Source: Branchiostoma lanceolatum (Eukaryota; Chordata; Leptocardii; Amphioxiformes; Branchiostomatidae). From it: a DNA stretch of 64,000 bases. Shown one piece after another: positions 14,574 through 56,000 of this stretch (positions are counted from its first letter, which is position 1; each line of letters starts with the position of its first letter). Location: NCBI RefSeq assembly GCF_035083965.1, contig NC_089727.1, forward strand, positions 9,367,501-9,431,500, written 5' to 3'. A program made the position numbers and the translations under genes. The notes below the pieces were generated by a model. That model was not told where the DNA came from and ran no database searches. It saw only the letters and a list, made by a program, of their open reading frames with translations.

Positions 14574-14772
14574 TATTCCTTTTCAAACGACGTTGTACAA
14601 ATGATCAAAGTTCACGTGACAAGTGCAAAGTGCGTACAAGTCAAAAGTACAAAGCCGTAAGTATGACTACAAGTTCTAGCTATTTAGCACATTTATTTAG
14701 TTCAGAAAAGTATTTCAGTCAATACACGTGTTAAGCACATTTACCTGTGTTAACAATTGGCAACACATCCCA

Positions 14773-15000
14773 ACTCATCAAATCACTAATAAGGGATTGT
14801 TTACATCCCTTACTAGTGATTAAATGAGCTAGCATGCCTCTGACTCATTAAATCACTAGTAAGAGATGATTTGAATCTCTACTAGTGATTTAATGAGCTA
14901 GCTTGCCTCTAACCTATTAAATCACTAGTAAGAGATTATTTAATTCTCTAACTAGGGATTTAATGAGTTAGATGTATGCTAGCTCATTAAATCACTAGTA
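14773..15000. repeat. Tandem array of palindromic ~69-bp units
   Basis: Units start at about 14773, 14844, 14913 and 14982 (partial). Each full unit is itself a hairpin: ctcattaaatcactagtaag, a short spacer, then the complementary cttactagtgatttaatgag. The spacing is 69-71 bases. No coding capacity. Confidence 0.85.
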
Positions 15001-25674: not shown

Positions 25675-28600
25675 TCAATCGTTGGGTGCCACGTGTCCCA
25701 CGAGGTAGATGTTGTCGTAGAGGTGTCCGGCGAATTCGGGGTCAGTTTCTGGGGTGGCGTGGCGTAGGTTCTTGATGAATTCGCGCTTGGACATCTTGTT
25801 CTTGACATGTGGACTGCTCAAGTCGACGGACAGGAGGATCAGGGCAAAACATAGGACCTCAATCACTCCTGCAGGAAACAAAACATAAAACAAATTTCAA
25901 ACATTCACTGAACCAAAGACATTTCTACATCTAGAAGGAAACTTAATGATACATGTATGTTATTCAGACATTACAAGAACATATTACACGTACTGAAGTT
26001 AAAACAGAGGAATTGCAGGGAAAAACAACTTAATTAATCACGGAATAATATTACATTGTACATTGTACATTGTAATTATGGTATCTGTCACAATCACAGA
26101 AGTGGCATGTAACACACACAAAAACACACATGCAAACACAGACACACACAAACAGCACACACACTACACGCATGCACTTGCAAACACCCACACGTCCAAA
26201 CATGCACACTACACACACATAACATGCACACTACACATACGAACACAACACACACACGGCACAAAAAATCACACACACACACACACCCATTCAGGACATA
26301 CCTGGTGACAATCCACAGTCTGGGTTACACTGACAGAATCTGTGGGAGAATTTCTCCACTAGTTTCTGTAGGTAGTCCCCCCTCTCCTCGGGCGCATGGA
26401 TCGTCAGGAAGAACTTTCGGAGGGCGTTGGGAAGGAACTGGTTCCTGTAGTTCTGACGAATGACTAGCTCGTCCAGAACATCTGGCCTTTATGGGAAAAA
26501 AATGTTGACATTCGAAAATGGCAAACGTAATACACTGACCTCAGAGTGCAGTCAGAGTTCAAAACAATTATAATCATACACACATAAAAATAAATATTAC
26601 TATCTTTACTAAACCCCTACTAGTACTAGGGAGTAGAGTATCGTTTTTTACTTGTCTGTCTGTGTTTTTGATGTCATGACCACAGAGCAGTATGGGTGAT
26701 TACATCATGGGCTCTTATTGTGTACATGGGGCGAAGGCTGCCATGGCCATCTCTGCATACCTTGGCCAATGCAAAGGTTCTTAACTTGATTATAACTTTC
26801 AGTGCATTCTTTCTATATTCAATAAGCTGTGTTTGTAAGATTGCCATGCAATGAAAAATGCCACACATACTGTACCTGTTTTCTAGGAAGATTCGGAGGG
26901 GTTTCCATCTGAGGGTTTGTGTGCCGTGGATAAAAGCTGCCAACTCTCGGGGGTGGTTGTCCAACACACCCTGGGCCACCAGATACTCAATACCCTAGAA
27001 ATAAAAGTACTCATAAGATTCTTGTACAAGTAATACAGCCTCTACCACCCCAGCCCAACAATGAGGGTACTATAGTACAAACATAGTCTTAGAATACAAG
27101 GTTTAGAAGCAGCTTAACTGTTACAGTCTGATCCCACTTCTGACACCATGTTGTATCATGTTGTAAAATTAATCAGACAGAGATATAGTAGATGATGCTA
27201 TTTGTCTTGTCTAGGATTGTGTAAGTACTATAGACAGTAGGTGTGCTCGTTCCAGAGCTGGTGGTATAATTTCTTACACACCGTCTTGCAGCAAACCATA
27301 TAGTTCATATTCATGATGGACTATACCAAGTTACGTAGATCGGAGGGGTGCTATCAGCTGTATTACACACAAATATACTAGTACCCAACATGATAAACAA
27401 CCAAATTCTATACCACAGTCATGAAGGTTTTTTTTTAAACTTAAGATTCATAATAGCATTCGTTATAAAGTATAAGCTACTTCAAGCCAACCTTCAACTT
27501 TGACATGTTACCAACAGTGCATCAACGCTGCACATGCTCACTTTAAACCGTCATCATTATCATCACTATGCCTCCGGATTTAATCCGGTGAAATACAATT
27601 ATAATAGTAAACCGTGAAGTAAATTATTGGGTACTTACTGACTCAGGGTCTGCATTAAAGGTGAGAGAACCTTCATCTAAGATAAGGTACAATCTCCTGA
27701 AGGAAAAGTTGCTGTCTCTCTGCTTTCTGTAGACGGTGGCATAGTTCCATGTGGCTTTGCAAAGTCTAGTAGAAGAAACAAGACATGTTATCATCATAAT
27801 TCTTACATATCTAGTCAATTGATTAATACCAAATATGCTCAAAATGAAAGACCTTGTTACTGACCTCATCATAAGGTAAAAACTTGCATGAAGTTAACTT
27901 TAAGTGCAAAGTTTAACAACAAAAAAAGAAGGCTTAAAGCTTTGATCATTTAGTACTAAGTTTTTGCAAAGTCTCCGACCTTAAAGTAAAACTCATACCT
28001 AAAAATTTGTTCTGTCTACCTTGATTTCTAGGTTAGGTGCACCAGCGCACCATTTTCTAAAAAACGAATTTCGAGCCCTGTACCTTACATCACTCTAGCT
28101 AGCCAGTTGTTGTCATAAAATATGCAATTATAATGCTGTGTATAAGTTATAAGCCAGCGCAGTGTGCCCTGGAAGCCAAGAGTTCAGCGGGTCTTATATA
28201 CCTGGGCCCCTAGCGACTTGGCCAGTAAAGTGAGACCATTGGGCTGACGGACTTACACAGCACCGCAGGGGCGCAGTGTGCGCAATGTGGATAATATGTC
28301 AAAGGTAAAGGCCCCTAACATGTATTTCTTGTTGCCCCCTATTTTTAGCTAAAACATGCCCATACATGTTTGCTTTATGTCTTAGGGGCCTTCAACTTTG
28401 ACCTACTAGTATAACCCTCAATGCACCTGGCCGTGCATGCACAGTTTGAACCGTGAAACAGCTTACTGTTAACCTACTCCCTGCTGCCTAACTCTGTAAC
28501 CAATAGAGAATGGGGTGCCAAACGGCTACTTCAGTGTGCTAAAGGTTAAAAACTTACCCCATCCACAGGACGTCATCATTGGCCATGTTCCAGACACAGG

Positions 28601-29069: not shown

Positions 29070-31511
29070 TGCTATTTCAAGAGGCCCTAACTGTATTTGA
29101 TGACAACCTGTTCCACTCTGCAATGGTTTCATAGTCATAACAGTCCTGCATTGTACAATCATAACAGTCACGCATGTAGCATTCCAACAAGATTAGCTCT
29201 CAAACCATCTTGAGACTTATATAGGCCATATATTGATTTTTAATTTTTAATGACCCTCGACATATAATAAAAACAAGTTGAATTTTCAGAGTAGGCATAA
29301 TGAACAAGCCTTATCTTGTATTTAAAAGTCACTGTTAAAATGGCTTTAACGTTAACATGTTAGCTTGTTTGAACACGATGCAATTTTGTTTTATTTATGG
29401 GGTCTCTTCTGCATTGTGTGCAGCAAACCTAAAATAGTGTATTAAAGCAAAAAGCATATAAGGATGACGTCACAATTTCTGACCTTAGAGAATGCTGTGA
29501 CAACATAACGATCAAAAAGAAGACTACCATTAATACTCTATGCGTGAAGTATCCGTGAAATAGCCGTAGGGCAGGATTCTAAAGAAAACAACAATCACAA
29601 ACTGAAGAAAGGGTGGGAGGGTCACGGTATATGGCTCGAGCAAACCAAAACCTGACGTTGGCATTGTTGATATCCAGCAAAAAAGTCACTGTGTGGCGAT
29701 TCAGACTTATCAAGGAGCAAATTGTAACGATTATTATGTCAAATTATGATATGAGTAGAACAGTTTGTACGTTGTGGAATGGATCATAACACTACAGCAG
29801 TTAAACGTTTACGAAGCAAAGGAATGTGTCTTTCTCACCATAAACGAAACTATGAAGGCTTGACTTACCTCTGTAGTTATGCCATAGGTGTCTATGGTCC
29901 CTCTGCTACGAGGTGGCAACTTTATGTATCTTCTACATGATAATACAGGAGGTAAACAAATAAAGATGATGATTCATTTTTACACGACCTCGATTCTGAC
30001 GTGTTTCAGGACAGCTCAGCTCAGACTGCACCGCAGACAAACGCAAAAATCAAACTGTACAGTGAAGAGCATCTTCCGAATTTATTATATTTTCCCTAAG
30101 AGACAACAATTACATTTCTATACATTACCTTACAGTTTATCTGTAGATATGAAGAGTTGCTGAATATACGTGTTTCTGTGAGGAAAAGGACTTTATGGTG
30201 AAAATACATGTACTGCTTACGTTAGGTTGCGAGCATAGGAAAACTACATGGTACTGCAGCGACATCTAGTAATTTAGGATGGTACCTCAGCCAAGCAAAT
30301 TACAGTGTGGTCCAGCAATCGACCAGATGGAGATTGCTCACAGGTGTATCCAGGTGATTATTATCTCCGGCGAGGAGGTTGACCTCCGACGGGAGGTGTT
30401 GTCTTTAATTGTGTATGTGTGTTTGCCTCTGTATAAATCCTACATTTATGTGGGAAATATATACTCCATAAAACTTCCACAAAACCAAGTTGACACATAA
30501 AAGTGAGGAATGCATCCTCTCAATCTAACCTCTGTCACTGGTTCATTTTGGAAGTGCTCAAATACCGACACTTGGCAGAATAAAGATGCAGTACGAAAGA
30601 GCGAACTGTCTCATTGAGTTTTAGAATGGAGCAATAAGCTCTGACATGTACCTATGATGATGAATGGCAAGGAAATCGCAGGTACTAGTATATTGCTGAA
30701 GCACACATTGTTACACAAATATCAGTCCAAATATTTGATTCACCATTTCATAATTGGAAGCTTCCATGTCCTGTCGTCAATACTAGATTCGTCAGAGAAT
30801 AGAAAAACAAGAATGACAGGAAATAATGGAAGGCAGAGATTGATACAGAGCTCAATTTATTTGGTTCAATGCAGACTTTGAAATGGGATAGATGAGAGCA
30901 TTTGGCAACACTTAACTGAGATGTGCTCATACTATACAGTCATATCATTGAGTTTTTTTCTTCCCCCTTCAAAGATTGGAAATATTGCATTGAAAACCAT
31001 AACAGACAATATGAAAAGACTAAGCTTTACTTTCCAAAACAGCTATGATAATCTGTACTACAGATAAGCATTCACACAAATGGAAAATGTTAGTGTTATC
31101 TAACATCAAACAATATAAATACAAATATGGCATAAACTGGATCTATATAGCTAAAAATACCACACTCAACTTGACTTCAATCCCTAATATGTGGTGCCAA
31201 ATAAGAAAAATTATCAATAATAATGACTTTATTGCAAGTTCATGCCCGAAGGCTAATTGCAGACAAACATGTACAGTACATGAAAATACATGGGAATCAA
31301 AAATAGTTATCTAGACTACTATCAAAGTTCTAAGTTAACTAAGGTTGACTATGGTTGGGTTTGACTTCTTTTTTGAAGGCAGTGGAAAATGAAGAGACCC
31401 ACGTTTTTTAATTGTGCTAATTCAACTTTACAGATGTGAATCATCCTATATCATTCCTTATGTAACTCATTGTACTTGAGTAGTAAGCCTAGAAGAGCTA
31501 TGTTTACCACA

Positions 31512-33230
31512 TCAATCTCTGGCTATGGTTACAGAACAGTGTCTGGCTAGTTGAAATGGCAGATCCTTTTCCCTCGTCATGGTATCATTGCTTGTGTTGT
31601 AACACTGAAGTGTAGCCAGGAGTGTATTGTAAAATTTGTCTTCTGATGTGGTCTGTGGATTCCAACCCCCAGAGGGCAGCCTTCGCCGCCCACCGGTGAT
31701 GAAGATCTCTGAGCCAAGCACAGTGGCACTGCAGTAACGCCATGGACCTTGTCGTTTTGCCAACTCCTCATAAATGTTTTCTTCATGATTGTACCGCAGG
31801 ACACACCCTAACTTACCACCAACAAGATAGATCCTAGAGTCCACTGTGCATGCCCTTATTCCTCTCATCAACTTGGGCAAGGGCGTTTTGAAAGACCACT
31901 CATTTTCGATGGGGTCATAGCACTCCACTGATTGCAAAGTGTTCATGCAATCGTCACAGAGAAAAGTCACACCGCCAAATACGTAGATCTTTCCTCGACA
32001 TGTAGATATACCAAAATCCTCCGATGACTGTAGTAGCGGTGCTCTCTCTCTCCAACTGTTTGCGCTCTTGTTGTATACTTCTACAGAAGTCTGAGCCATG
32101 TTGCTGGGAGTGCCACGACCACCAACAACGTACACCTCTCCATTCACAGACGCCATCCCATGGAAACTTCGACCGTTTCTTACGGATCCCAGCTTAGTCC
32201 AAGAATCCTGAGACGGCCTGTACCTCCATGCTTGATGCTCAGACTCGTCTCCCCCTGTCACAATCACGTCATTCTCCACAACACATGCTGCAATTCCCTT
32301 ACTCTTCTGAAAGGATTGCTGCAGTGCATTTTTGCCCACACAGATGCCATTGAGATCAAGTCTGTACATGGCACAATTTATACCGTCCTCTTCCTCACAC
32401 AATTGCAACTTACCACCAAGAACCAGAATTTCTTCTTGCCGAATTTTACGAGGTCTTGCATGTGCAGACTGGTTCCTGATTAGTTTCCTGATTTCGCGAA
32501 CTCCTGCCAACACTTTGTCGTTCTTCAGTATGTTCTCCAGATAGTTTTGGTCCACATTTGCGAAATCAACACACTCCATAAGCTCTGTAAGGTGTCTTTG
32601 CCGTTCTTCGTGATCATGTCTTGCCCAGAGCACGATCGCCTCCAACACCCGTTCCTCTTTCTTGGCATGAAGGCCATCGTCTGATAGGTACGTCTTCAGG
32701 AAGTCTACAGGTAGCTGAAGGAACTCCTCAGTCATGTGTACTTCTTCAAAACTTTTCAGGGCAATGTCTCTTGCCATCTCAGACAACTTTGTACTCGACA
32801 CTAGGTCTGCCAATGCCCAAATTCCTAAACAGGACTCGGTCTTCAGACGGTTCCTTAGGAACACTTCACAAGCCTTTGTGATATGTGAAACCTGCAGCAT
32901 GTTGGCTGCTTTGAGCAGGGGCTGTACATTATCAGTAGTGATGGCTATCTTGGAAGTGTAGGCAAAGTCCACCAACAGTTGTAGAGCCTCAGCACTCACC
33001 CCTCCTATCTCTATCTTGTCCTTCTTACTCTCGCTGTGGGCTCCGTTGAACATGGCGTGGAAGTAGTCGGAGTAGGCAGCCAGGACCAAACGGTGACAGG
33101 CAATCTCCTTCCCTTCAGCGCACAGCGTCACATCTACCATGTATCGTTCTGACCGTAGCTCCGCCAACCGCTCCAGCAACGTGACTGGATACAACTTGTC
33201 CACATCAGAACCATTTAAACTGTCATCCAT
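31512..33230 (-). CDS. Kelch-like BTB-BACK-Kelch protein, left copy
   Basis: 572 residues in one coding exon; the ATG follows an acceptor (cttcttctag). BTB domain about residues 20-125 (DVTLCAEGKEIACHRLVLAA, SDYFHAMF), BACK about 130-235 (CLGIWALADL, VLEAIVLWARHD), then six kelch blades marked by strand-GG motifs (ILVLGG, VIVTGG, VYVVGG, IYVFGG, IYLVGG, IFITGG). Proteins of this plan are substrate adaptors for CUL3 ubiquitin ligases: BTB binds CUL3, the propeller binds the substrate. The N-terminus lacks about 16 residues found in the right copy (it runs directly from NGSDV into DKLYPV). Which vertebrate KLHL it matches is not clear; the BTB/BACK part is broadly KLHL24-like. Confidence 0.93.
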   Translation of the reverse strand: MDDSLNGSDVDKLYPVTLLERLAELRSERYMVDVTLCAEGKEIACHRLVLAAYSDYFHAMFNGAHSESKKDKIEIGGVSAEALQLLVDFAYTSKIAITTDNVQPLLKAANMLQVSHITKACEVFLRNRLKTESCLGIWALADLVSSTKLSEMARDIALKSFEEVHMTEEFLQLPVDFLKTYLSDDGLHAKKEERVLEAIVLWARHDHEERQRHLTELMECVDFANVDQNYLENILKNDKVLAGVREIRKLIRNQSAHARPRKIRQEEILVLGGKLQLCEEEDGINCAMYRLDLNGICVGKNALQQSFQKSKGIAACVVENDVIVTGGDESEHQAWRYRPSQDSWTKLGSVRNGRSFHGMASVNGEVYVVGGRGTPSNMAQTSVEVYNKSANSWRERAPLLQSSEDFGISTCRGKIYVFGGVTFLCDDCMNTLQSVECYDPIENEWSFKTPLPKLMRGIRACTVDSRIYLVGGKLGCVLRYNHEENIYEELAKRQGPWRYCSATVLGSEIFITGGRRRLPSGGWNPQTTSEDKFYNTLLATLQCYNTSNDTMTREKDLPFQLARHCSVTIARD

Positions 33231-33956
33231 TCCTAGAAGAAGGAAAAGGGAACTTTAGACAAAACACAGATGCAATTTTGGAATGTTATATGTTTATATA
33301 GAAAAATGTCTAATCAAGGTACTTGAGGAAACAGGAATAGCCATGCGCTAACCACCTCCTGGGCGTGTAACAGTTATAACCAAGGGGCGTTGTCCAGTAC
33401 ACAACCAGAACCAGAGAAGATAACTTGGTAGATTGTAGTCAACATCCACTATGCCATGAGTTATTATAAACTGTATATGTACACAATTGACCTTGTGGCA
33501 TGTAGACTAGCATAAGCAGCAGGCCATTATAAACTAAACTACATTGTTGTATTGTAGACAATAAGGAGGTTCACGATTCTAAGTACGAATGCGCAGTAAA
33601 ATGCACTGCTAATATGTCAAAGGTGAAGGGCCCTAACTTGCAAACAGTTCTTGTCTCAACCATTGTTTCGATTTGCATAACAATGTCCAGACGTGTTTTG
33701 TTTATGTCTCAGGGCCGCGTATGTAATAAAGTGAACCCTTCGTTAGTCGCCACGGCTAAAAGTGGGCTTTAAACAAATTATCGCTTTGATCATAACAACA
33801 TATTTTGCAAAATTATGGAACAAATCATCTTAGATTAGAACCAGTTAAGTTACATCGTACATATATGGAGGCATGGGGTCCGCTTGAGTAGTTATACTCA
33901 CTGTCAATTACTCCATATGCAAACAAGCCGACGAAAAACAGAAATGAAGGAGTAAA

Positions 33957-34272
33957 CTATCTACACTGCGCAATCATTGAATCATCCTTAATGAGTTATG
34001 GGGTAGTGCCGAAGTCGCGTGATGAAAGAGAGTCCCTACATATCAACTAATGAAAGGAAGGGCGGGTGGGTGGGGGCGCTAAAACCAAGAGCCCGACTCC
34101 TCGCTACTTTTGTCCAACCCTTGCTCACTCTGTCCGGGACCTGCCTTCCACCACGCTCCTCGGCGTTGCGGATGATTTCAGTTAACTACACAGCATGGTC
34201 AACTGCCGCTCCTTTTATAGCATTAGGTGATGTCATTGGCGGATTGATCCAATTATAGCGCAGTGTAAATAG
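33957..34272. mobile_element. 316-bp TIR element (A), short relative of 34277-42530
   Basis: It begins ctatctacactgcgcaatca and ends attatagcgcagtgtaaata g; the two ends are about 30-bp imperfect inverted repeats. It is flanked on both sides by TAAA (33953-33956 and 34273-34276), read as a 4-bp target duplication. Its first 54 bases and last about 100 bases are identical to those of the 8.25-kb neighbour, so it looks like an internally deleted derivative. No protein. Confidence 0.8.
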
Positions 34273-34882
34273 TAAACTATCTACACTGCGCAATCATTGA
34301 ATCATCCTTAATGAGTTATGGGGTAGTGCCTACGTCGCTACGTTCTATCCTGATAGCCCTACTTATATCAACCTTTCTTCATGACCGTAGGCAATTCATA
34401 ACTACAACCCCCATACTCATCCAAACCGCCACAACCTAAACCTATCCCATTCTCATCCCATCCTAATCAGCACCTTTTCGGACGGGTGACAGAAAAATAT
34501 ATTAAAACCCCAAGCCAATAATCGCAAAAATATTCCCTCTTTGCACAGGCTTGGCACAAAAACCGACATACCGCAAATAAACTGCATAACGTTGACTTAC
34601 AGTATTCTTGCCGTAAGGCTAATTGTACGTCTCTATGTACAACATTCTTACCTCGAACCAAACGCATCGTCTATCCCCCATCCTAATCACTTACTGGGAC
34701 GTAAATGAGCACACATGTAGTATTCACCAAATATGGGGGGATGACACAATTGACATCTGGGACGAGTTAGGGCACTGTCCCTGATTGATAAACCTCCGAC
34801 CATGCGGTCCGGAGTCAGTCTGAAGTCCATCTCCGTGTGTGCTGCTGTGCCTCTCTTAGCCTTGTTCTTACCACATAACAAT

Positions 34883-34894
34883 TGGTGGCAGCGG
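34883..34894 (+). promoter_or_regulatory. Primer-binding-site-like sequence (tRNA-Leu type)
   Basis: tggtggcagcgg equals the complement of a typical tRNA-Leu 3' end (CCGCTGCCACCA). It sits 32 bases before the gag ATG, where a Ty3/gypsy primer-binding site would be. The match stops after 12 bases and no matching LTR pair was found. Confidence 0.45.
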
Positions 34895-34925
34895 CCTATA
34901 CTTCGGAGTATATTTTATCCACGCC

Positions 34926-35816
34926 ATGGCAGCCGCACAACGTTCGACTCCCCCCGAGACCCCCCCCCCCCCCCCCCCCCCGTCCTTCGACGGGAGCGAC
35001 GACTTCCAGTTCTGGAGCCAGCAATTCGATGCCTGGGCCGAGTCCCAACCACTGGACGACCCATGCAGCGAAGCTGCGCCACCTCCCCACCTACCTCACC
35101 GGCGCAGCGTTCGGCTACTACACCGAACTGCCGGACGCTACCAAAGGCCACAGTATGAATCCCACCTCATCTCCGAACTCTGCACCCGACTTGGAATTCG
35201 TAAAACGCGCACATCGCCCTACCACCCACAGGGCGACGGCCAAGTCGAGCGATTTAACCGGACGATGAAAGACATACTTGCGAAGTGTTTAGCAGGGCGC
35301 GAGAACGACTGGGACAGAATCCTACCCCACGTCGCCCTGGCCTACAACACCAGCCGCCACACCACCTCCAAGCGCTCTCCTTTCTACCTCGTCCACGGCC
35401 GAGAAGCCCACCTACCAGTGGACGTCGCCTGTCAGCTACCAGCCACAACAGCACACCTGGCCGACCTGACGACAGCCATCACGTCAGTCCGCGACGCCAT
35501 CGCCCAGTCCCATCAGACGCAAGACCAACATCAAGCCCCCCGTGTCAACTACCACCAGTACAGAGTCGGTGATCGCGTCTGGCTTCACCATCCACCTTTA
35601 GCACTGTACAAACTCCGTCTCCCTTGGACTGGACCGTTCACGGTCATGGCCACCCTACCACCCGGTGAGCCAGCGCCCATCCTGTATCGTATACAACATG
35701 ACACCGGTCGCCAGCGCCAACAAGTAGTCCATCACAACCGACTGAAGCCGTACATCGCCCCTACCCGCCGACTCCTGCCACACACATACCCAATATGTAT
35801 TTGGATCTGCCTTTAA
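34926..35816 (+). CDS. Ty3/gypsy-type gag-integrase fusion ORF (internally deleted)
   Basis: A 296-residue open frame. Residues about 1-50 look like the start of a gypsy gag (Pro run, then FDGSDDFQFWSQQFDAWAES). After a short junction the frame enters an integrase: HLISELCTRLGIRKTRTSPY then HPQGDGQVERFNRT, which carries the last catalytic acidic residue (Glu of the DD-35-E core). It ends with a C-terminal integrase/GPF-type region (RVGDRVWLHH, WTGPF, HHNRLKPY). Protease, reverse transcriptase, RNase H and the first two catalytic Asp of integrase are absent, so it cannot be an autonomous element. The Pro run is encoded by a roughly 20-base poly-C tract. Confidence 0.75.
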   Translation: MAAAQRSTPPETPPPPPPPSFDGSDDFQFWSQQFDAWAESQPLDDPCSEAAPPPHLPHRRSVRLLHRTAGRYQRPQYESHLISELCTRLGIRKTRTSPYHPQGDGQVERFNRTMKDILAKCLAGRENDWDRILPHVALAYNTSRHTTSKRSPFYLVHGREAHLPVDVACQLPATTAHLADLTTAITSVRDAIAQSHQTQDQHQAPRVNYHQYRVGDRVWLHHPPLALYKLRLPWTGPFTVMATLPPGEPAPILYRIQHDTGRQRQQVVHHNRLKPYIAPTRRLLPHTYPICIWICL

Positions 35817-35841
35817 TCTCCCTCCACTGACTAGGTGGAAA

Positions 35842-36180
35842 CCAAACCTATCACCGTCAACAGAGGATCACGTCTTCCTTTAGTTAATGGCCTAGCTTGT
35901 GGATGATGACAATATCTTAATCCAAGACCCTCTCTCATCATAAAGTGATATCGCGTCTCCAAAACTAGGAGCTGCTCAATCCAAACCAAAATGCCATTCT
36001 AGTTCACCCAAGAACCTCTCACCGTCAACAGAGGATCACGTCTTCCTTTAGTTTAGCCTAGCTTATGGATGATGACAATATCTTAATCCAAGACCCTCTC
36101 TCATCAGAGAGTGATATCGTGTCTCCAAAACTAGGAGCTGCTAAATCCAAACCAAAATGCCATTCTAGTTCACCAAAGAA
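35842..36180. repeat. Two-copy tandem repeat, unit ~166 bp
   Basis: The phrases ccgtcaacagaggatcacgt, gatgatgacaatatcttaat and ccattctagttcacc occur twice in the same order, about 166 bases apart, with a few differences. Confidence 0.85.
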
Positions 36181-37099
36181 GAACCAATAAAGCCAGGGAA
36201 CATCTTCCGACGCCTCAGCCTTTCTTTACCGACAAGGACAGGGTCTGAAAACCGCTGCAGACTAAAGCTTACCTTACGCCTAATATTTCCTCGAATGGGC
36301 GGGTCTGGTAAGCGCCGTCCTGCTCGAAGCCCCATTGAAGCTCGTTGTGAGTCAAACGCCTAAGCCAGCCTCTCTTCAACTCTAAGAAGTGCATTTGAAC
36401 CCATACTCAAACTCGAGCAGACCATTTCCCTTACTCTACCGTCACGTAAACTTGCGTTTATCCGGCTTCCGACCTACAGCCCCAATCAAAAGATGGCTTT
36501 ACCATCGATGGGCCCAGTCGTTTGAGACGAAAAAATATCTAAAATAGCTCTTCGCTTCCACGCCTTAACTGGGCCGGATCACCTAAACCCGTTGGCCTAG
36601 ACCCCATCTGGCGTAGTCGCACCCGCTGCCGGCAACTTATCCCCTTAGCTAACATTTTTTAAGGAACAGATTTCTCTCCCATCTTGCATTTCTCCTAGGT
36701 TTAAACTCCCATGCCCTACAAGGACATAGCCACTGTTACCATCTACCAACGGTCTCCCAATGTACCTACCGTGACCGAAATAACAATGACTGTTTTCTAA
36801 GAGCAATCTGTCACAGTTTCAGTCCATGCGCACCGTCCCTTCAGCACTCCCGGCTTGTGTCTTACTCATATGCATGACGAGACCATCGATATCGCCATTG
36901 AGTGCCTCTATCCACCACGAGCGTGACCTATCAACCTTCAGCGCTAGTCATGTGTAAGACGGCATCTGACTGCGTATTACTGGTCATTCACACATAAAAC
37001 GCGCCGAACAGACACTCTCGTGGCGAGAGTAACGAACGTCACATGCCCGATGCCAAATTACTCCCTGCTTGCCAAGTGTGTCACCGCCGGACCGCCCAT

Positions 37100-40000
37100 C
37101 AATTGGTGCCTCTCTTGCAAATCGCCACTATAACAGCCAAGTGACCCGACAACATGCACGACAAATACTCTCGCCTGTCAAATGTGCTACCAGCATTCGC
37201 ACTCGAAAATGCGCCACAATGACACTCAACTGACGATGTCGCCGAACCTGACATGCACGACGCAAACTCTTTGCCGCCCTATTATCCGACAGCGAGAGCG
37301 TGCAATAAACACCAAAATACCTCTCAACCGACAACATCGTCGTACATAACATGGGGCACGTAAATCTTACAACCCTTGCCATGTGATCCTCCGCCCAGCT
37401 GGTAGTGCTACCATGTCGAGTGTACGTGTGCAAACAGCCACCTTACAACATTGATGCGCCGCACCTGCACAATTCAAAGTCATCTGGCGCTCGCCATACG
37501 AGCCCCACACTTAACCTTTCAACAACTAGGTCATAAACGTATTCCCATGGCAACGAATACCTACTAACGCTCGCCATGTAGGTCACGCTCGCCTTCCCGA
37601 CACACCGCATGCACGTTACACACCCTTCACGAGCATGATGTATGCCACATGCACGAATGCCTGCCCTAAGACATGCCAAAGAAGACCCTACCCTACCGAG
37701 GATATTGACAAACCCCACATGCACGACGTAACCCTTCACGATCGCCACGTGTGTCATGCTCGCCATTAGCCATCCGTACTAAGATCGTGCCAAATAACAT
37801 TCAACGGAGGATATAGACGACACCACATGCACGTCGTAAATCTCCTCACACTCACCATGTGTGTCACGCGTCAGTGTGCCCGCACTGAAACGTGCCAAAT
37901 GAACACTCCACTGAAGACAACGACGAACACCGCCTAAACGACGTATACCCTTCACACTCACCATGTGTATCACGCTCGTTCTGCCCGCCAACGAGTGTCC
38001 GCACAAACTGTGCCCAAAGAAACCCTCCACTAATGACATCAACTGACACCACATGCATGACGTATACCCTTCACACCCGCCATGTGTATCACGCTCGACC
38101 ACCCTACAACGAACGTCCGCACTAAAACTGTGTCATAAGAATATTCCACTGACACCAAATGCACGATGTTAAGCCTGTGAGCCTCGCCCTGTGAGTCACG
38201 CCCGATAGCCCGACCGTGAGTGTCCACACTAAATGTGCCACAGAAATATACCACTGGGACATGGACGAACACCACATGCACGATGTGAGGCCCGTGAGCC
38301 CCGCCCTGTGAGTCCCGCTCGACAGCCCGACAGCGAGTGTCCACACCAAATGCACCAAAAACGCTCCAGTGAGGACACCATATACACGATATACTATATC
38401 CTTCCCACCCAACCTATGTATCGCTCGACTGCCCCTCCGCGAGTGCCCGCACTAAATGCGCTAGATACCCCTCCCCTGAGGGCATAGACACGTACCACAT
38501 GCACGATGTAACGTGTCTGCAACTCTCGATCTCGCGATGTGTCACGCTCCACCGCGAGTGCCCGCACTAATTGTGCAAAGGAACACTCAACTGAGGACAT
38601 CAAAGAACACCACCACGACACAAATCCCATGTTACGGGTGTCACACTCGAAGGCCCCTCAGCGAGCGTCCGCGCCAATTGTACCGAAGAACACTACACTC
38701 AACTGAGGAGATCGACGAACATCACCACGACGCACACATCTGTCACGCTACGTGTATCACCGATCGACTGTCCCTCAGCTAGTGCCAGCACTAAAATGTG
38801 CCAAATAACACTCAACTGAGGACATCGACGAACACCACTACGACGTACACATCTCTCACGTCACGTGTCACACTCGACTGCCCCACAGCAAGTGTCCGCG
38901 TTAATCGCGCCTAAGAGCACTCAACTGAAGACATCGACGAACACCACTACGACGTGTAAATTGCTCGTGTCACGCGTGTCACGCTCGACTACCCCACAGC
39001 GAATGCCCACACTAATTGTGCCTAAGAACACTCAACCGAGGACATCAACGAACATCACGACGTGCCCAATTGTCACGTCACATGTGTCACCGCTCGACTG
39101 CCCCTCAGTTAGTGTCAGCACTCAACTGTGCCAAATAAAACTCAACTGAGGGCATCGACGAACATCACCACGACGTACACACCTCTCAAGTCACGTGTGT
39201 CACCGATCGACTGTCCCTCAGCTAGTGCCAGCACTAAAATGTGCCAAATAACACTCAACTGAGGACATCGACGAACATCACCACGACGTACACATCTGTC
39301 ACGCTACGTGTATCACCGCTCTACTACCCCTCAGCTAATGTCAGCACTAAAATGTGCCAAATAACACTCAACTGGTGACATCAACGAACATCACCACGAC
39401 GTACACATCTGTCACGTTACGTGTGTCACCGCTCGACTGCCCCTCAGCTAGTGTCAGCGCTAAAATGTGCCAAATAACACACGACTGGGGACATCGACGA
39501 ACATCACCACGACGTACACATCTGTCACGTTATGTGTATCACCGGTCGACTGCCCCCCAGCTAGTGTCAACACTAAAATGTGCCAAATAACACTCAACTG
39601 AGGACATCGACGAACATCACCACGACGCACACATCTGTCACGTTATGTGTATCACCGGTCGACTGCCCCTCAGCTAGAGACAGCGCTAAAATGTGCCAAA
39701 TAACACTCAACTGAGGACATCGACGAACATCACCACGACGTACACATTTGTCACGTCACGTGCGTCACCGCTCGACTGCCCCTCAGCTAGTGTCAGCACT
39801 AAAATGTGCCAAATAACACTCAATTGAGGACATCGACGAACACCACCACGACGCACACATCTGTCACGTTATGTGTATCACCGCTCGACTGCCCCTAAGC
39901 TAGCGTCAGCACTAAAATGTGCCAAATAACACTCAACTGAGGACATCGACGAACATCACCACGACGCACACATCTGTCACGTCACGTGTGTCACCGCTCG

Positions 40001-40885
40001 GCTGCCCCTCAGCTAGTGTCAGCACTAAAAATGTGCCAAATAACACTCAACTGGGGACGTCGACGAACATCACCACGACGCACAAATCTCTCACGCCACG
40101 TGCGTCACCGCTCGACTGCCCTTCAGCTAGTGTCAGCACTAAAAATGTGCCAAATAACACTCAACTGGGGACGTCGACGAACATCACCACGACGTACAAA
40201 TCTCTCACGTCACGTGTCACCGCTCGACTGCCCCTCTGCTAGTGTCAGCACTAAAATGTGCCAAATAACACTCAACTGGGGACGTCGACGAACATCACCA
40301 CGACGCACCCATCTGTCATGTCACGTGTGTCACCGCTTGACTGCCCCTCAGCCAGTGTCAGCACTAAAATATGCCAAATAACACTCAACTGGTGACGTCG
40401 ACGAACATCACCACGACGTACAAATTTCTCACGTCACGTGTGCAACCGCTCGACTGCCCCTCTGCTAGTGTTAGCACTAAAATGTGCCAAATAACACTCA
40501 ACTGGGGACGTCGACGAACACCACCACGACGTACACATTTGTCACGTCACGTGTGTCACCGCTCGACTGCCCCTCAGCTAGTGTCAGCACTAAAATGTGC
40601 CAAATAACACTCAACTGGGGACGTCGACGAACATCACCACGACGTACAAATTTCTCACGTCACGTGTGCAACCGCTCGACTGCCCCTCTGCTAGTGTTAG
40701 CACTAAAATGTGCCAAATAACACTCAACTGGGGACGTCGACGAACACCACCACGACGTACACATTTGTCACGTCACGTGTGCAACCGCTCGACTGCCCCT
40801 CTGCTAGTGTTAGCACTAAAAATGTGCCAAATAACACTCAACTGGGGACGTCGACGAACACCACCACGACGTACAAATCTCTCAG
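37100..40885. repeat. Tandem satellite, ~113-bp monomer
   Basis: The phrase gtgccaaataacactcaact recurs every 113 bases or so from about 38800 to 40850 (for example 39353, 39918, 40370, 40483, 40596, 40709). Upstream, from about 37100, units are recognisable but diverged (cgccatgtgtgtcacgctcg, cactaaa-tgtgcc). Many monomers carry CACGTG and cgacgaacatcaccacgacg. Because 113 is not divisible by three, the open frames in it (MPNNTQLGTSTNI...) cycle through all frames and are not genes. Confidence 0.92.
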
Positions 40886-42420
40886 TAATACGTACCTCAT
40901 ATTGCTACTCGACAGTTGTCCACGGCATCCCTAATGTCTCCACCGCACGCCTCTCTACTCCAGCATGTTTTCTCCCGTCTCGGTAGCGACTGCTGCAGCC
41001 GAAGTGGTTGTCATTTCTGTCACCGCAGTCTCCCATCTTCCGGAGTGACTTGCCAGCCTAAAATAAACAACACCCATGAGACAACCACTCGTAAACAAAG
41101 CAAAGGAAAATCAACAAACAACACGTCTCAAAAGAAACGAGCTCCGAAAAGCCTGAAGCCCTCGCCTATAAATTACAAACAAACGCGGAGCTTGTTCCAC
41201 CATCGCTTCTCTGTCACTGCAAGGTTCTTGTCCGCCACAATTGGTAGGCAGCTTTTCATAGGCAGTACCGGCCTCCAGGACGCCAAACTGTAGACAACAA
41301 AACACAAAACGTATCGCATCAGGCATAATCAGAACAAAAACGCAGACAAACATGTCCGGCGTCTCCGTCATACAAATGCAAATCACCGAAATACGATTCA
41401 AAGAAAGAAAACCCAAGTACGCCGGACTCCCGCCAAAATTCCTGCAGACAAAAATGGTGGCAGCAGGTCAGCTGCCCTGGCAGATGCCACTTCACGCCAT
41501 CGCCACAGGTCCTGCATCTCTCGAGTAGGCAGCCCCAAGTGTCCGCGTGTCCCATCCTTCTGGGTGCTGAGTTGGACTCTGACGAGGCCCATCCAGCACT
41601 TGAACAACGGCGGCGACTTTCTTGGTGTAACGCCTGCCTGACGTGCTAAACATGTCCGCTGCGGAACCGCTTGCCTCCTAAGTGTTGACTGCCGGGGTCG
41701 CCTGTTGTGTGAAGTCCTGCAAACTCGCAGTGGGTACCCGTGGAGCTTGGCTTATCACTGTAAAGGCACACAACACCACTTAATGGCCGAAGCAAAACAC
41801 ACAAAACACACGCTACCCACCCAAGGAAACTTACATCGAAAGGGAAGAACAAGTCCCAATCCGACCGAGGGCCAGGACACCGATTTGCCAAGGCCGAAAG
41901 CTCCACTCAGGTACCCTTCCCTTACCATTTACTGTAAACCACCCGAGTAACCCTGTTACGAAAACCAGAGAACAAAAGAAATTCTCCACGCATACAAATG
42001 CAAATGTCCCACGTGCAAAAAAGCCGCCAAAATCCCGTCGACAAAAACAGCTGCAACGAGAAATCGTCAAAACACGCTAAAAAAGGCACTTGAGAAAACC
42101 CCGAGGTTAAAACAAGCTACAAAACACCCCAGGAAACAAACCCAACTCGTAAAAACGAAGCCACAAGCAGAAAACTGAAAAACGGGAAAATAACAGCCGT
42201 CAACTAAACTCGTTACGGCCTAAAAACAAAACGTCCCCCGCTCTGCCAAAACCAGCTCAGTAACTAGCCAAACCTTGACCGAAATTCGGTCGTGGTAGTC
42301 CAGAAAACCTCTCCTAGGACTCAAGACGCTGCCAAAGGCCGCTCGAAGCACCGGTGGACGCACACTCCATTGTAAGAAGACCCCACTTCGAGCCCGGGAC
42401 AGACTGCCCACCACGTCCAG
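40886..42420. other. Unassigned segment of composite element
   Basis: No protein family was recognised on either strand. Two places share the phrase catacaaatgcaaat followed by an A-rich stretch with cgccaaaat (near 41370 and 41990), so part of it may be an old internal duplication. Confidence 0.35.
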
Positions 42421-43666
42421 TCGTTGCGTAGGATTTCAGTTAACTACACAGCATGGTCAACTGCCGCTCCTTTTATAGCATTAGGTGATGTCATTGGCGG
42501 ATTGATCCAATTATAGCGCAGTGTAAATAGCAAAACGATGTGCACAGGGCAAGATCAGACCGGACACGTTTGCTCCCTTGAGAGTATTGACTTCTAACCC
42601 TTAACCTCGCGACCGTAATCCACTTGTCAGTGAGGACCCCTAGCGATCCATGTTATTTTTGCCGCTGCTGGGTGTAAATAGTTTTAATACGGTACATAAA
42701 ATACTTCAACTAGCTCAAAAGTCATTGCCAATGTCTGCAAGTGTTCTGGTCATATTCCAACAATGAAGTTGTAAAGGATCTCGTTGAACTGATAAAATTA
42801 TATACTTACTGGTCGCGAGGTCAAGGGTTAGAGGCCATATGTCAATACTCTCAAGGGAGCAAACGTGTCTAGTCTTGCCCTGTGCACGTCGTTTTGCTCC
42901 TTCATTTCTGTTTTTCGTCGGCTTGTTTGCATCTTGAGTAATTGACAGTGAGTATAACTACTCAAGCGGACCCTTTGCCTCCATATATGTTGTACGATGT
43001 AACGTAAACTAAGATGATTAGTTCCATTTGCCAAAAATGTTGTTATGATCACAGCGATTGTGTAGGATACACATGTATGGACACTTCTAAAATTCGTTAA
43101 AACAATTTCAGGAGACTCATCTACTGTTGCTGAGAGACTTTGTAGTGTAGGAATACTAGGAATAGATGTGACATAAACAAAACACGTCTGGACATTGTTA
43201 TGCAAATCAAAACAATGGTTGAGACAAGAACTGCAAGTTGGGGCCCTTCACCTTTGACGTATTTATTGACGGTGCATTTGGCTGCGTATTCGAACTTAGA
43301 ATCATGAACCTCCTTAATGTTTTGTTCATAGTTTAGCTTATCATGGCCTGCTGCTTATGCTAATTTGTCACAAGATCCAGAACCTGAGAATTTGGTCTTG
43401 TAGACAACATCTACTTTGCCATGTACATACTTGACCTCGTGCCATGGTAGACTACATGCCACAAGTACATGTAGTTGATGTTGACTGCAAGACCAATTTC
43501 TCAGGTTCTGGATCTGGTTGTGTACTGGACAACGCCCCTTGGTTATAACTGTTACACGCCCAGGAGGTGGTTTACTAAGTGTGTGGCTACTCCTGTTTCC
43601 TCAAGTACCACATTTTTCTATACAAATCAGCCATAAGTTATAACATTCCAAAATTGCATCTGTGTT

Positions 43667-45463
43667 TTGTCTGAAGTTCCCTTTTTTCTTCTTCTAGAAA
43701 TGGACGACAGTTCCAATGGTTCTGATGTGGACCAGAGTCTGGATGTGGACGTTGGTTCCGATGATGCTATGGACAAGTTGTATCCAGTCACGTTGCTGGA
43801 GCGGTTGGCGGAGCTACGGTCAGAACAATACATGGTAGATGTGACGCTGTGCGCTGAGGGAAAGGAGATCGCCTGTCACCGCTTGGTCCTGGCTGCTTAC
43901 TCCGACTACTTCCACGCCATGTTCAACGGAGCCCACAGCGAGAGTAAGAAGGACAAGATAGAGATAGGAGGGGTGAGTGCAGAGGCTCTACAACTGTTGG
44001 TGGACTTTGCCTACACTTCCAAGATAGCCATCACTACTGATAATGTACAGCCCCTGCTCAAAGCAGCCAACATGCTGCAGGTTTCACATATCACAAAGGC
44101 TTGTGAAGTGTTCCTAAGGAACTGTCTGAAGACCGAGTCCTGTTTAGGAATTTGGGCATTGGCAGACCTAGTGTCGAGTACAAAGTTGTCTGAGATGGCA
44201 AGAGACATTGCCCTGAAAAGTTTTGACGAAGTACACATGACTGAGGAGTTCCTTCAGCTACCTGTAGACTTCCTGAAGATGTACCTATCAGACGATGGCC
44301 TTCATGCCAAGAAAGAGGAACGGGTGTTGGAGGCGATCGTGCTCTGGGCAAGACATGATCACGAAGAACGGCAAAGACACCTTACAGAGCTTATGGAGTG
44401 TGTTGATTTCGCAAATGTGGACCAAAACTATCTGGAGAACATACTGAAGAACGACAAAGTGTTGGCAGGAGTTCGCGAAATCAGGAAATGTAAACTAATC
44501 AGGAATCAGTCTGCACATGCGAGACCTCGTAAAATTCGGCAAGAAGAAATTCTGGTTCTTGGTGGTGAATCACAGGAGGAAGAGGACGGTATAAACCATA
44601 CCATGTACAGACTTGATCTCAATGGCATCTGTGTGGGCAAAAGTGCACTGCAGCAATCCTTTCAGAAGAGTAAGGGAATTGCAGCATGTGTGGTGGAGGA
44701 TGACGTGATTGTGACAGGGGGAGACGAGTCTGAGCATCAAGCATGGAGGTACAGGCCGTCTCAGGATTCTTGGACTAAGCTGGGATCCGTAAGAAACGGT
44801 CGAAGTTTCCATGGGATGGCGTCTGTGAATGGACAGGTGTACGTTGTTGGTGGTTATGACAAAACTCGCAACAACATGCCTCGGACTTCTGTAGAAGTAT
44901 ACAACAAGAGCGCAAACAGTTGGAGAAAGAGAGCACCATTAATACAGGCAGTGGTCGATTTCGGTATAACTACATGTCAAGAAAAGATCTACGTATTTGG
45001 TGGCGAGACATTTCTCTTTAACGAGTACATGGAGACTCATGCAGTGCAGTGCTATGACCCCATCCAAAATGTGTGGACTAACATGTATAGAACGCACTTG
45101 CACAGGCCGATGAGAGGTATAAGGGCATGCACAGTGGATTCTAAGATCTATCTTGTTGGTGGCAAGCTAGATTGTGTCCTGCGGTTCAATCATGAAGAAA
45201 ACATTTATGAGGAGTTGGCAGAAGGACTAGTCCCATGGCGTTACTGCAGTGCCACTGTGCGAGGCTCAGAGATCTTCATCACAGGCGGGCAGCCCTATGG
45301 GGCTTGGGATCCACAGGCCACATTAGAAGACGAATATGTCTTTTACCGCACGAGCCTGGCTACAATTCAGTGTTACAACACAAGCAATGATACCATGATC
45401 AGGGAAAAGGATGCGCCATTTAAACTAGTCAGGCACTGTACTGTAACTATAGCCAAAGACTGA
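43667..45463 (+). CDS. Kelch-like BTB-BACK-Kelch protein, right copy
   Basis: Open from 43667; the likely start is the ATG at 43700 (MDDSSNGSDV), just after the acceptor ttcttcttctag, because the preceding codons lie in the presumed intron. It has the same domain order as the left copy: BTB (DVTLCAEGKEIACHRLVLAA), BACK, six kelch blades. Extra N-terminal residues (DQSLDVDVGSDDAM) are absent from the left copy. The BTB and BACK parts are almost identical between copies, while the later kelch blades differ more (for example YDKTRNNMPRTS versus RGTPSNMAQTS), suggesting relaxed or divergent substrate recognition. The predicted role is a CUL3 adaptor. It is transcribed away from the left copy. Confidence 0.93.
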   Translation: MSEVPFFLLLEMDDSSNGSDVDQSLDVDVGSDDAMDKLYPVTLLERLAELRSEQYMVDVTLCAEGKEIACHRLVLAAYSDYFHAMFNGAHSESKKDKIEIGGVSAEALQLLVDFAYTSKIAITTDNVQPLLKAANMLQVSHITKACEVFLRNCLKTESCLGIWALADLVSSTKLSEMARDIALKSFDEVHMTEEFLQLPVDFLKMYLSDDGLHAKKEERVLEAIVLWARHDHEERQRHLTELMECVDFANVDQNYLENILKNDKVLAGVREIRKCKLIRNQSAHARPRKIRQEEILVLGGESQEEEDGINHTMYRLDLNGICVGKSALQQSFQKSKGIAACVVEDDVIVTGGDESEHQAWRYRPSQDSWTKLGSVRNGRSFHGMASVNGQVYVVGGYDKTRNNMPRTSVEVYNKSANSWRKRAPLIQAVVDFGITTCQEKIYVFGGETFLFNEYMETHAVQCYDPIQNVWTNMYRTHLHRPMRGIRACTVDSKIYLVGGKLDCVLRFNHEENIYEELAEGLVPWRYCSATVRGSEIFITGGQPYGAWDPQATLEDEYVFYRTSLATIQCYNTSNDTMIREKDAPFKLVRHCTVTIAKD

Positions 45464-45519
45464 TATGGTTAACATCTTGGCTCACTACTGGTACACAAGG
45501 AATGATATATACATGTAGG

Positions 45520-53000: not shown

Positions 53001-56000
53001 TTTTGCCAAAACATCATGGGCCGAGCAAATCCATACAATTGGGAGGCAAATATCTAATCATGCAAATGTAGTCGGAAACACTTCCCCAAAGGGCTCTATG
53101 GATTAACAATTATCTGGTAGCTTTGTATGTCAATCATTCTACATGATGTCCCAGGGTCTGGTATGAGGGTAAAAGCACCACTGGTAGTGTGGCAGTGTGT
53201 GTGGTACCCATGTACATGTCTATATGTATGTATGTTTTACATTTTTAGACCCAAGGTCTTATGCTACATGCTTTAGAAAATTACTTTATCTTATTGATTC
53301 TGGCATTCCACATGCGCCTGTTTCTTGCTTGCCTAGCTAAGTGTTCAAAAGGTAAGTGTTCACAGTCCATCAGCAGGGAGCCTTCCGGCGGGGTGTCTCC
53401 TCCGCACACGTAGGCTTTCAGGGTGCGCCTGACCAGTCTGGAGGGGTCCATGCGGAGAATGTGGCCCAGGTACCGGAGTCTCCTACTGCGGATGGCTGAC
53501 ATCAAGTTGTAGTCTGGGTTTGTTGCTGTGTCCCGAAAATGTTTCTTAGTGATCACGTGTAGACATCTGCTGTTGAAACCGTTGACCATTCTTGTGATGT
53601 CCTGCGTCATGTCCCATGCTTCACAGCTGTGGGTGAGGGTTGAACAGACAGAAGATTTGTACAGACGTATCTTCATTGGATGCGGAAGTCTGTGGTCCCT
53701 CCATATATGTTGTAGGGAGCTGAAGCGGGATTGTGCGATGTCCATTCTGTATTTCACATCTGCTCTCTGGTCACCATCACATTGCATGCGGCTTCCAAGA
53801 TAGTCAAATGTGTGGACGTTTTCTAGTTGTTGGCCTTGTAGGGTGACGTGGCCACGTTCCTTTTCCTTGGCAACTCTCTTCTGGCGCTGTACTTCCTTGT
53901 CCGCGAGGCTACCGGCACGTGACCGGGTGTTGGCGGTGGAGGGGTGATGTAGGCACCAGCGACTCCGGTGAATGGCTAGCCCTCTTTTTGTTGGAAAATC
54001 TCTTGTGCAATCTGGGCATTTGTGTTTTAGGTTCAAGGCAGCTACCTCGGCCTCTGTCGTCGTTGATACACGGTCTTTACGGTGTATGTGCATGGCTTTT
54101 GTTTTTGGGACTGTCCCATGTCTATATATTTACCAGGGAAAAAGGGAGTCCTCATCATCAGGGCATCCCCTGCAACAGGAGAGCATCTAATTTCTTTGTT
54201 TTCTTCGTGTAGGGCGTCCAGAGAACTCCCTAGTGCCCTTCTACATATAGCTATTAGCCTGATGTCCACACACCTAGAAATATGAACACTGTACTTACTT
54301 TTGCAACAAAACACAGTTACCCATTGACAAGCAACTGGATAAAATTTTGAAGCAGTCAGACGTTTCAGACAGCATCTGCTATCTTTCCTCGGTGACTATC
54401 ACCTCGATATCATTAACATTCCAATTCAGAGCTTTGGTATGGGAAGTGGTTCTTCTTTCCATTAGACATTGACAAAAGATAGCGGATACTGTCTGAAACG
54501 TCTGACAGCTTCAAAATTTTATCCAGTTGCTTGAGTAACTGTTTTTTGGCATATCTTCTTACCTGGATGTCTAACCTTTATCAAAGTACTTACTTTTGGT
54601 TTCCACAAAGAGCGGTCCTACAGGCTGGCTGGTCATGGAGGAGACCTTGTGGGGTTTCTGCATGTCTGTGGTCTTGTCACCAACGATGATGTCTTCATCT
54701 GCCACCATGAAGTCTACCGAAACTGTAAACACACGAAACAATTTTCTGGGGCACAATCAAGACACATAAAATGGTGCATTTCCTAGAACACTGCAAATCC
54801 AGCCCTGGCATACTGTTTATTATTTAATTTTCGCAGAGTTTTTTTAAGTTCTCGGTTTTCGCAGTGACCTGTCACTGTGAACCTATCCCACCGCAAACAT
54901 TTGTTCTTTCTTGCATTATTTAAGTTAGTACAACTGTGAACTCAAAGACAATGCACACTCTTGACTTTCACTATAGCTATACCACGCAATTTAAGTGCAG
55001 CAAACTCAAATCTTTTTAATTTGCAGTATACAAACCTTCTCCATCTGCTTGGTAGGCCTCATCAGCTGAAGTCAGGTTAGTCCTGAAAGGAGGAGAGTAC
55101 TGTAAGTCTTCAAACTTTCACAGTGCTTTTATTTTTGTGGTGACCTCTCTGCCGTGAACTTGTGACACCACAAACGTGCGTTTTCATCGAATTACTACGG
55201 TACTACAGAATTGTTTCAACCATGATCATTACAAAACACAGCAAAAACCTCCCTTTCCCTCCAACCACAAAATAAAACCACCACAAAAGTAAATGAATTT
55301 ACAGTAATCATTGGTGACATTTGTTTCATTAAGTCCTTTTTTGTTAGACCCCCCAGCTTAATGTGATCAGCTGTTTTCTAGGATCTTTCATGACAAAGAC
55401 ATGTAAGAACAACATGAAACAGAACTTTGGAGTAGTAGAAGAATCGAAATAATGGTTCTATGAACTTCTATACAACTTCAATAAGCAATAATAGGGTTTG
55501 TAAATGATCACACATTTCTTTACAACTACTTCTTAACATGCTTGAATGCCAAGCAAGTCAATTGATATTACATCAAAACACAAGTCAAGGGACAAAGCAA
55601 GCAGTGCAGTTTTTTTACCTGGCATTTTTCTTCTTTTTCTTCTTCCCAGGCTGGGGACGAGGGGGTCGGGCCTTCTCACCTCCCTCCCCCTCCCCCTCCG
55701 CACTCCCTTCCCCCTCCCCCTCTGGAGCAACAGACATGTCCATATTCAAAGTTTTGTACTAACAAAAATTTCCTGACATAGTATGGCTAGTTCAACAGTT
55801 TGGATGAAGATAATGACAAATCGAGGCCTCAGGAGCAGAGCCATTAACACCCCTTTGTCCTTTTCTGTAACTTTCCCATATCAAACAAAATCTAATCCAA
55901 AAGAAGTACAATATACTTCTTATATTATGATGATGTACCAGGTCTGGATTTGGGTTTCCTACGCTTCTTTCCGGAATCTGGTATCTCATCGATTCCTTCC

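Follow-up and report, generated by a model that had tools for sequence, protein, structure and literature searches.

Two neighbouring transposable elements with terminal inverted repeats (TIRs), called A and B here, lie between an inverted pair of BTB-BACK-Kelch genes (31512–33230, minus strand; 43667–45463, plus strand) of the lancelet Branchiostoma lanceolatum. The window, that is, the whole stretch analyzed, comprises 64,000 nucleotides of contig NC_089727.1 (positions 9,367,501 to 9,431,500), and all coordinates given are positions in it. The order at the locus is TAAA-A-TAAA-B-CAAA. The features of the two elements and of their insertion site are collected in Table 1.

Table 1. Features of elements A and B, the cargo of B and the insertion site.
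Feature	Position	Strand	Description or basis
TAAA, left target copy	33953–33956	.	Sequence; alignment to mirror arm
Element A, TIR element, resembling a miniature inverted-repeat transposable element (MITE)	33957–34272	+	316 bp; ends common with B; own TIR
TAAA between A and B	34273–34276	.	Sequence
Element B, TIR element with cargo	34277–42530	+	8254 bp; TIR 24/28; ends common with A
Cargo of B	34340–42407	+	GC 0.51, GC skew −0.26
Primer-binding-site-like 12-mer TGGTGGCAGCGG	34883–34894	+	Sole exact copy on either strand of window
Open frame: gag-like start (by eye) and C-terminal part of a Ty3/gypsy-type integrase	34926–35816	+	Pfam and PDB matches
166-bp tandem duplication, 2 copies, 94%	35845–36180	+	Repeat search, self-comparison
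113-bp tandem array, including diverged leftward units	36950–40884	+	Tandem Repeats Finder, alignment to unit
CAAA, right target copy	42531–42534	.	Sequence
Mirror arm of inverted duplication with uninterrupted site, single CAAA	42806–42990	−	Alignment

A and B share their outer ends. The left ends are identical over the outermost 54 bases (60/62 over 62 bp) and the right ends over the outermost 99 (108/113 over 113 bp); inward of these identical stretches the likeness stops. The middle of A (34019–34147) has no counterpart in B by local alignment, its best score being 21, where the top three of 20 shuffles reached 24, 25, and 25. Thus, an insertion into A would not yield B. The ends of both elements are imperfect inverted repeats starting CTATYTACACTGCGC and reading CTATYTACAC. 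In B, 24 of 28 bases match between the two ends, as do 14 of the outermost 15; among 200,000 pairs of sites drawn at random from the window, the best inverted match was 23 and none came to 24/28. The 15-bp end motif, with up to 3 mismatches allowed, occurs seven times in the whole window: the four exact occurrences are the four element ends, and the remaining three have 3 mismatches each. A has no listed open reading frame of at least 120 amino acids, and its fold as single-stranded DNA is not clearly better than that of shuffled sequences (z −1.29; 10 of 100 shuffles at least as stable). In Repbase, the practice is to group non-autonomous elements on the length of the duplication and on the first 11 bases, with one mismatch allowed (PMC4455052); by both measures A and B group together. 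Inverted termini common to at least two copies are present, as in a non-autonomous TIR transposon.

The inverted duplication that carries the Kelch genes supplies an uninterrupted version of the insertion site. The outer flanks of the A-B pair were joined by script with one YAAA and aligned to the reverse complement of 42780–42990. The alignment runs unbroken across the site, where the mirror arm has one CAAA, compared with three copies of YAAA around A and B. Bases beside the site agree between the arms at 36/36 positions on the left and 19/20 on the right. The unbroken alignment and the single CAAA mean that the paralogous empty site in the mirror arm is real. A YAAA target duplication, 4 bp at most, is supported from this one locus. 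A preliminary description of the locus had drawn the boundaries of A at 33957/34272 and of B at 34277/42530, with 54 bp and about 100 bp shared at the ends, imperfect inverted termini of about 30 bp and an uninterrupted site in the mirror arm, and the end alignments and the joined flanks agree with all of this. Its 4-bp YAAA duplication holds in that YAAA stands at every junction and the empty site exists; the length is an upper limit only, and the copies differ as C and T.

The Kelch genes lie on arms of about 85% identity (31447–33711 versus 43167–45509), each of which keeps a long open frame (572 and 598 amino acids), and more matching duplication blocks flank the insertion site on either side. 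With gaps scored as differences, 93 of the first 100 columns of the arm alignment match moving away from the site, then 57, 49, 89, and 79 per 100, and 15 of the last 46 columns, which are mostly gap; on the right side of the site the arms match in 75 of 92 columns. The ends of A and B, in contrast, are identical in 153 of 153 bases. It is simpler to suppose that the insertions followed the inverted duplication; had they preceded it, A and B would both have had to disappear from the mirror arm and leave no trace. As to their order, B probably came first and A then entered the left YAAA, because this order needs one base change whereas the reverse needs two; the argument is a weak one, turning on a single base.

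The cargo of B contains a piece of a retrotransposon. Its primer-binding-site-like 12-mer is one that we take to match the 3′ end of tRNA-Leu. The frame downstream of it matched Integrase_p58_C in Pfam above the cut-off (1.6e-08) and rve_3 (5.8e-05), MLVIN_C (0.0093), and Acb1 (0.019) below the cut-offs. Among solved structures, it matched the prototype foamy virus (PFV) integrase at 2.4e-11 (3l2q) and the Ty3 Gag-Pol structure at 2.7e-09, the latter with frame residues 82–275. The alignment covers the PFV chain from position 192 onward, and we assume residues 128 and 185 to be the first two catalytic aspartates of that enzyme. On these presumed positions, the first two catalytic residues fall outside the PFV and Ty3 match ranges and outside the two printed alignments, to integrase chains 3dlr and 2x6n, in both of which the glutamate of the VER motif is retained. 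Of the DDE triad, the glutamate alone thus appears recognizable in the integrase piece. A GPF near its C-terminus, noted by eye, does not discriminate Gypsy from Ginger1.

The same frame starts with a proline-rich part that looks gag-like, and more gag-like sequence is present in an overlapping frame; this likeness was judged by eye, and no gag family matched. The simplest account of a frame running from gag to integrase is that a large internal deletion disrupted a retrotransposon. Such an arrangement is what Ty3/gypsy debris left by a deletion has, and a Ginger transposase does not have it. No long terminal repeat (LTR) partner of 34330–34960 was found downstream in B, the best local score being 25 and the top three of 20 shuffles 29, 29, and 31. 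A second primer-binding-site-like string, ACAATTGGTAGGCAGC, lies at 41237–41252. It exceeds the 34.88-kb string by one base in length, and by score its match to that string is no better than shuffles.

Much of the remaining cargo is tandem repeat. Tandem Repeats Finder places the 113-bp array at 38557–40884, with 20.7 copies, most homogeneous from about 39.1 kb. Leftward of 38557, alignment to the unit reveals related units, patchy and increasingly diverged, back to about 36950; within this stretch, the block 37404–37516 scores no better against the unit than sequence outside the array. At the right end of the array (40200–40884), two unit types seem by eye to alternate, which suggests a 226-bp higher-order unit there.

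The cargo is also strand-biased. GC skew is negative in 40 of its 40 bins of 200 bp, versus 152 of 275 bins outside. The parts outside the array stay biased (−0.29 in 34340–36950 and −0.20 in 40885–42407), and a skew of −0.2 was reached by none of 523 overlapping 1.5-kb stretches outside the cargo (lowest −0.193) and by none of 501 overlapping 2.6-kb stretches (lowest −0.144). A as a whole has a skew of −0.006, and the 8-kb flanks have −0.06 and +0.03. Judging by the bias that its parts have in common, most of the cargo likely derives from a single source element, which may have been a gypsy derivative whose 3′ part was rich in repeats.

Read from stop to stop, B yields 56 pieces of 60 or more amino acids. 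The Pfam scan covered the 30 that lie outside the array region, in which the other 26 start (36948–40707). Among the 30, the integrase piece alone matched above a curated cut-off, and no recognizable transposase was found; weak matches below the cut-offs were to SLBP_RNA_bind (0.46), Viral_Beta_CD (0.015), and Pox_A12 (0.14). With no transposase evident, we infer mobility in trans.

Relatives were sought more widely. The 15-bp end motif has 23 loci in IMG/VR, one match each, all 23 of which extend into the element end by 3 bases or fewer and are taken as chance. The 21-bp right-end pattern had no match in the contig collection searched. For the integrase frame, two stretches in IMG/VR matched a pattern and neither was confirmed as a relative, and A together with the first 62 bp of B had no match among phage records. 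Across the window, Rfam at gathering scores gave no match and ARAGORN, with the bacterial code, no tRNA genes. The TIR pieces ACACTGCGC and GCGCAGTGTA, sought in literature full text, led to no paper recognizable by its title as dealing with such an element. Nor was the element recognized, from titles and abstract openings, among the papers listed on amphioxus or Branchiostoma repeats, Ginger, 4-bp superfamilies, captured cargo, and tandem MITEs.

A and B are quite probably two non-autonomous copies of one cut-and-paste TIR family, with cargo captured or accumulated in B. In favor of this stand identical outer ends on otherwise different elements, a TIR match beyond chance and the one YAAA in the mirror arm as against three here. 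The elements are read as non-autonomous because of the missing long frame in A and the missing transposase in the scanned pieces of B. The strand bias spans the cargo and neither the whole of A nor the 8-kb flanks. The family would have inverted repeats of about 28 bp and would duplicate a YAAA target, of 4 bp at most, through a transposase that acts in trans and is not recognizable here. The proposed history is as follows. B would have inserted first, into one arm of the older inverted gene duplication, to give CAAA-B-CAAA; the left CAAA would then have mutated to TAAA, and A would have inserted there. The interior of B, a deleted Ty3/gypsy piece and the 113-bp array, may have been captured or may have accumulated in place.

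Several points weigh against this account. The 8.25 kb of B are much for a TIR element that moves passively, and the evidence base is two copies at one insertion locus. The two outer target copies disagree at one base, T on the left and C on the right, and formally the duplication may be shorter and the element longer and less symmetric. The 36 identical bases left of the site make the comparison of end and arm divergence less telling, as may constraint on transposon ends. The bias domain fits B inexactly, as the best C-over-G segment of the window, 34079–42418, starts inside A and not at the edge of B, and the weakest cargo bins have skews of −0.017 (41540–41739, nearly unbiased) and −0.068 (34740). 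Finally, a spliced or very diverged transposase is possible, given the 26 array-region pieces and the pieces shorter than 60 amino acids outside the scan.

The rival explanations differ in what they make of the cargo and of the empty site. B might once have been a short TIR element that received a gypsy derivative through the derivative's own integrase, rather than by capture during repair. The strand-biased domain does end near the shared right end (42418) and lies mostly within B; yet no LTR pair was found, and the unmatched middle of A means that the parent would have to be a different short element, which is possible. We regard this course of events as doubtful, though not far-fetched. That A and B were already present before the inverted duplication and were later precisely excised from the mirror arm would account for the single clean YAAA there; it demands footprint-free loss of both elements and sits poorly with identical ends on diverged arms, an objection softened by the same 36 bases and possible end constraint, and it seems improbable to us. 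We give slightly less credence still to an assembly artefact, by which two haplotypes or a collapsed repeat would have been joined in tandem. Identical-ended copies that adjoin each other, the longer with a tandem array, might raise that suspicion; the middle of A is without match in B, however, YAAA stands at each junction, and the window contains no N.

Two further rivals start from the retrotransposon-like sequence in the cargo. In one, the ends that A and B have in common belong to LTRs, which would make A a solo LTR and B an LTR retrotransposon. The order of gag and integrase and the 12-mer inside B fit this, but TG..CA edges are absent from the ends of A and B, no direct repeat joining the two ends of B was found, and the stretch at 34330–34960 has no downstream partner. 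The LTRs of a Ty3/gypsy element are thus not found, and on the edges and the missing pair we reject this explanation as very unlikely. The other takes up the comparison with Ginger that the preliminary description had invited: B would be a DNA transposon of Ginger type, and the integrase-like enzyme of B would move both elements. Ginger1 and Ginger2 are like B in being TIR elements with a 4-bp duplication and Gypsy-like integrase sequence inside, and Ginger1 enzymes have a GPY/F motif (PMC2836005), which the GPF of the integrase piece fits as it fits Gypsy. They are unlike B in termini, target, and catalytic residues. Both have TGTNR termini; Ginger1 targets are CCGG or CCGT/ACGG, and Ginger2 prefers RTATAY (PMC2836005). 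The ends here read CTATC and CTATT, and the target, at this one locus, is YAAA, which agrees with neither Ginger1 nor Ginger2/Tdd. Of the zinc finger, DDE core, and GPY/F of a Ginger1 transposase, the C-terminal domain with GPF is present; no zinc-finger family matched the integrase frame in the Pfam scan, the alignment to PFV starts past the first two aspartates (as we place them), and the frame opens with its gag-like part. Ends, target, and catalytic residues leave the Ginger comparison with almost nothing to recommend it.

Other superfamilies were compared by termini and duplications. The termini of piggyBac, which also duplicates 4 bp, are 5′-CC..GG-3′ (PMC10045372), and those here are CT..AG; those of IS481EU are TNT..AYA or TGT..ACA (PMC10045372), and those here are CTA..TAG. 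In the PHIS group, the duplications are given as TWA, AT, ANT, CWG, or TNA, with none for Spy, which is found in AAATTT (PMC4482050). YAAA as read fits none of Harbinger, ISL2EU, Pangu, Nuwa, and Spy, with the proviso that the duplication may be shorter than 4 bp. It is unlikely, if conceivable, that CTATYTACACTGCGC ends with YAAA mark a so far undescribed superfamily whose transposase tolerates a load of 8 kb and for which a strand-biased, array-bearing retroelement derivative is a regular passenger in many copies.

The preliminary description's view of the cargo as a gypsy gag-integrase piece with a satellite is upheld by the integrase matches, the gag-like start, and the tandem array. It had called such cargo unusual in a TIR element; it is less so, as TIR elements with captured cargo and internal arrays are already known. 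MITEs and their larger non-autonomous siblings are like A and B in that only the termini are common, a target duplication is present and no transposase is recognized; they are unlike B in that B has 8.25 kb, with retroelement and array cargo. The closest design found is that of Tetris and DAIBAM in Drosophila virilis. As described, Tetris is a long non-autonomous element with tandem repeats of about 220 bp whose outer ends are common with the MITE DAIBAM, and the two are probably mobilized by one autonomous element (PMC4079207). The repeats of Tetris lie inside long TIRs, and its duplications are 8–10 bp, for which Mutator is suggested (PMC4079207); B, by comparison, has TIRs of about 28 bp, an internal array, and a duplication of no more than 4 bp. 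A review lists cases of tandem repeats that arose within MITEs (PMC9659126). Pack-MULEs are reported to hold foreign fragments inside TIR elements (PMC6431247) and to be moved in trans, which is the likeness to B; B differs in its short duplication and in carrying retroelement debris rather than gene fragments.

Elsewhere in the window, frames like UDP-glucuronosyltransferase lie on the minus strand at 10.3–14.6 kb. A dispersed short repeat at 28298–28402 has related stretches at 33610–33714, 43170–43263, and 59333–59389; the 28.3-kb copy has inverted ends GTCAAAGGTAAAGGCCCCTAA and TTAGGGGCCTTCAACTTTGAC and looks like a separate MITE-like element. At 14772–15000 there are about 3.3 copies of a 70-bp unit, nearly palindromic by eye. 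A 270-residue frame at 53281–54093 (minus strand) shows weak likeness to a C2H2 finger, and no family reached its cut-off; by eye, it presumably resembles the C-terminal part of a non-LTR retrotransposon.

For the study of this family, the mirror site represents a clean insertion, on the simplest reading younger than the duplication, and from it the boundaries of the elements are known to within YAAA. Probes for the element family and its transposase can therefore be taken from the first 54 bp and the last 99 bp. The A-B pair does not extend the Ginger group. Rather, it is a case of a class II shell loaded with class I debris and with a tandem array, and satellite sequence might be spread by this route.

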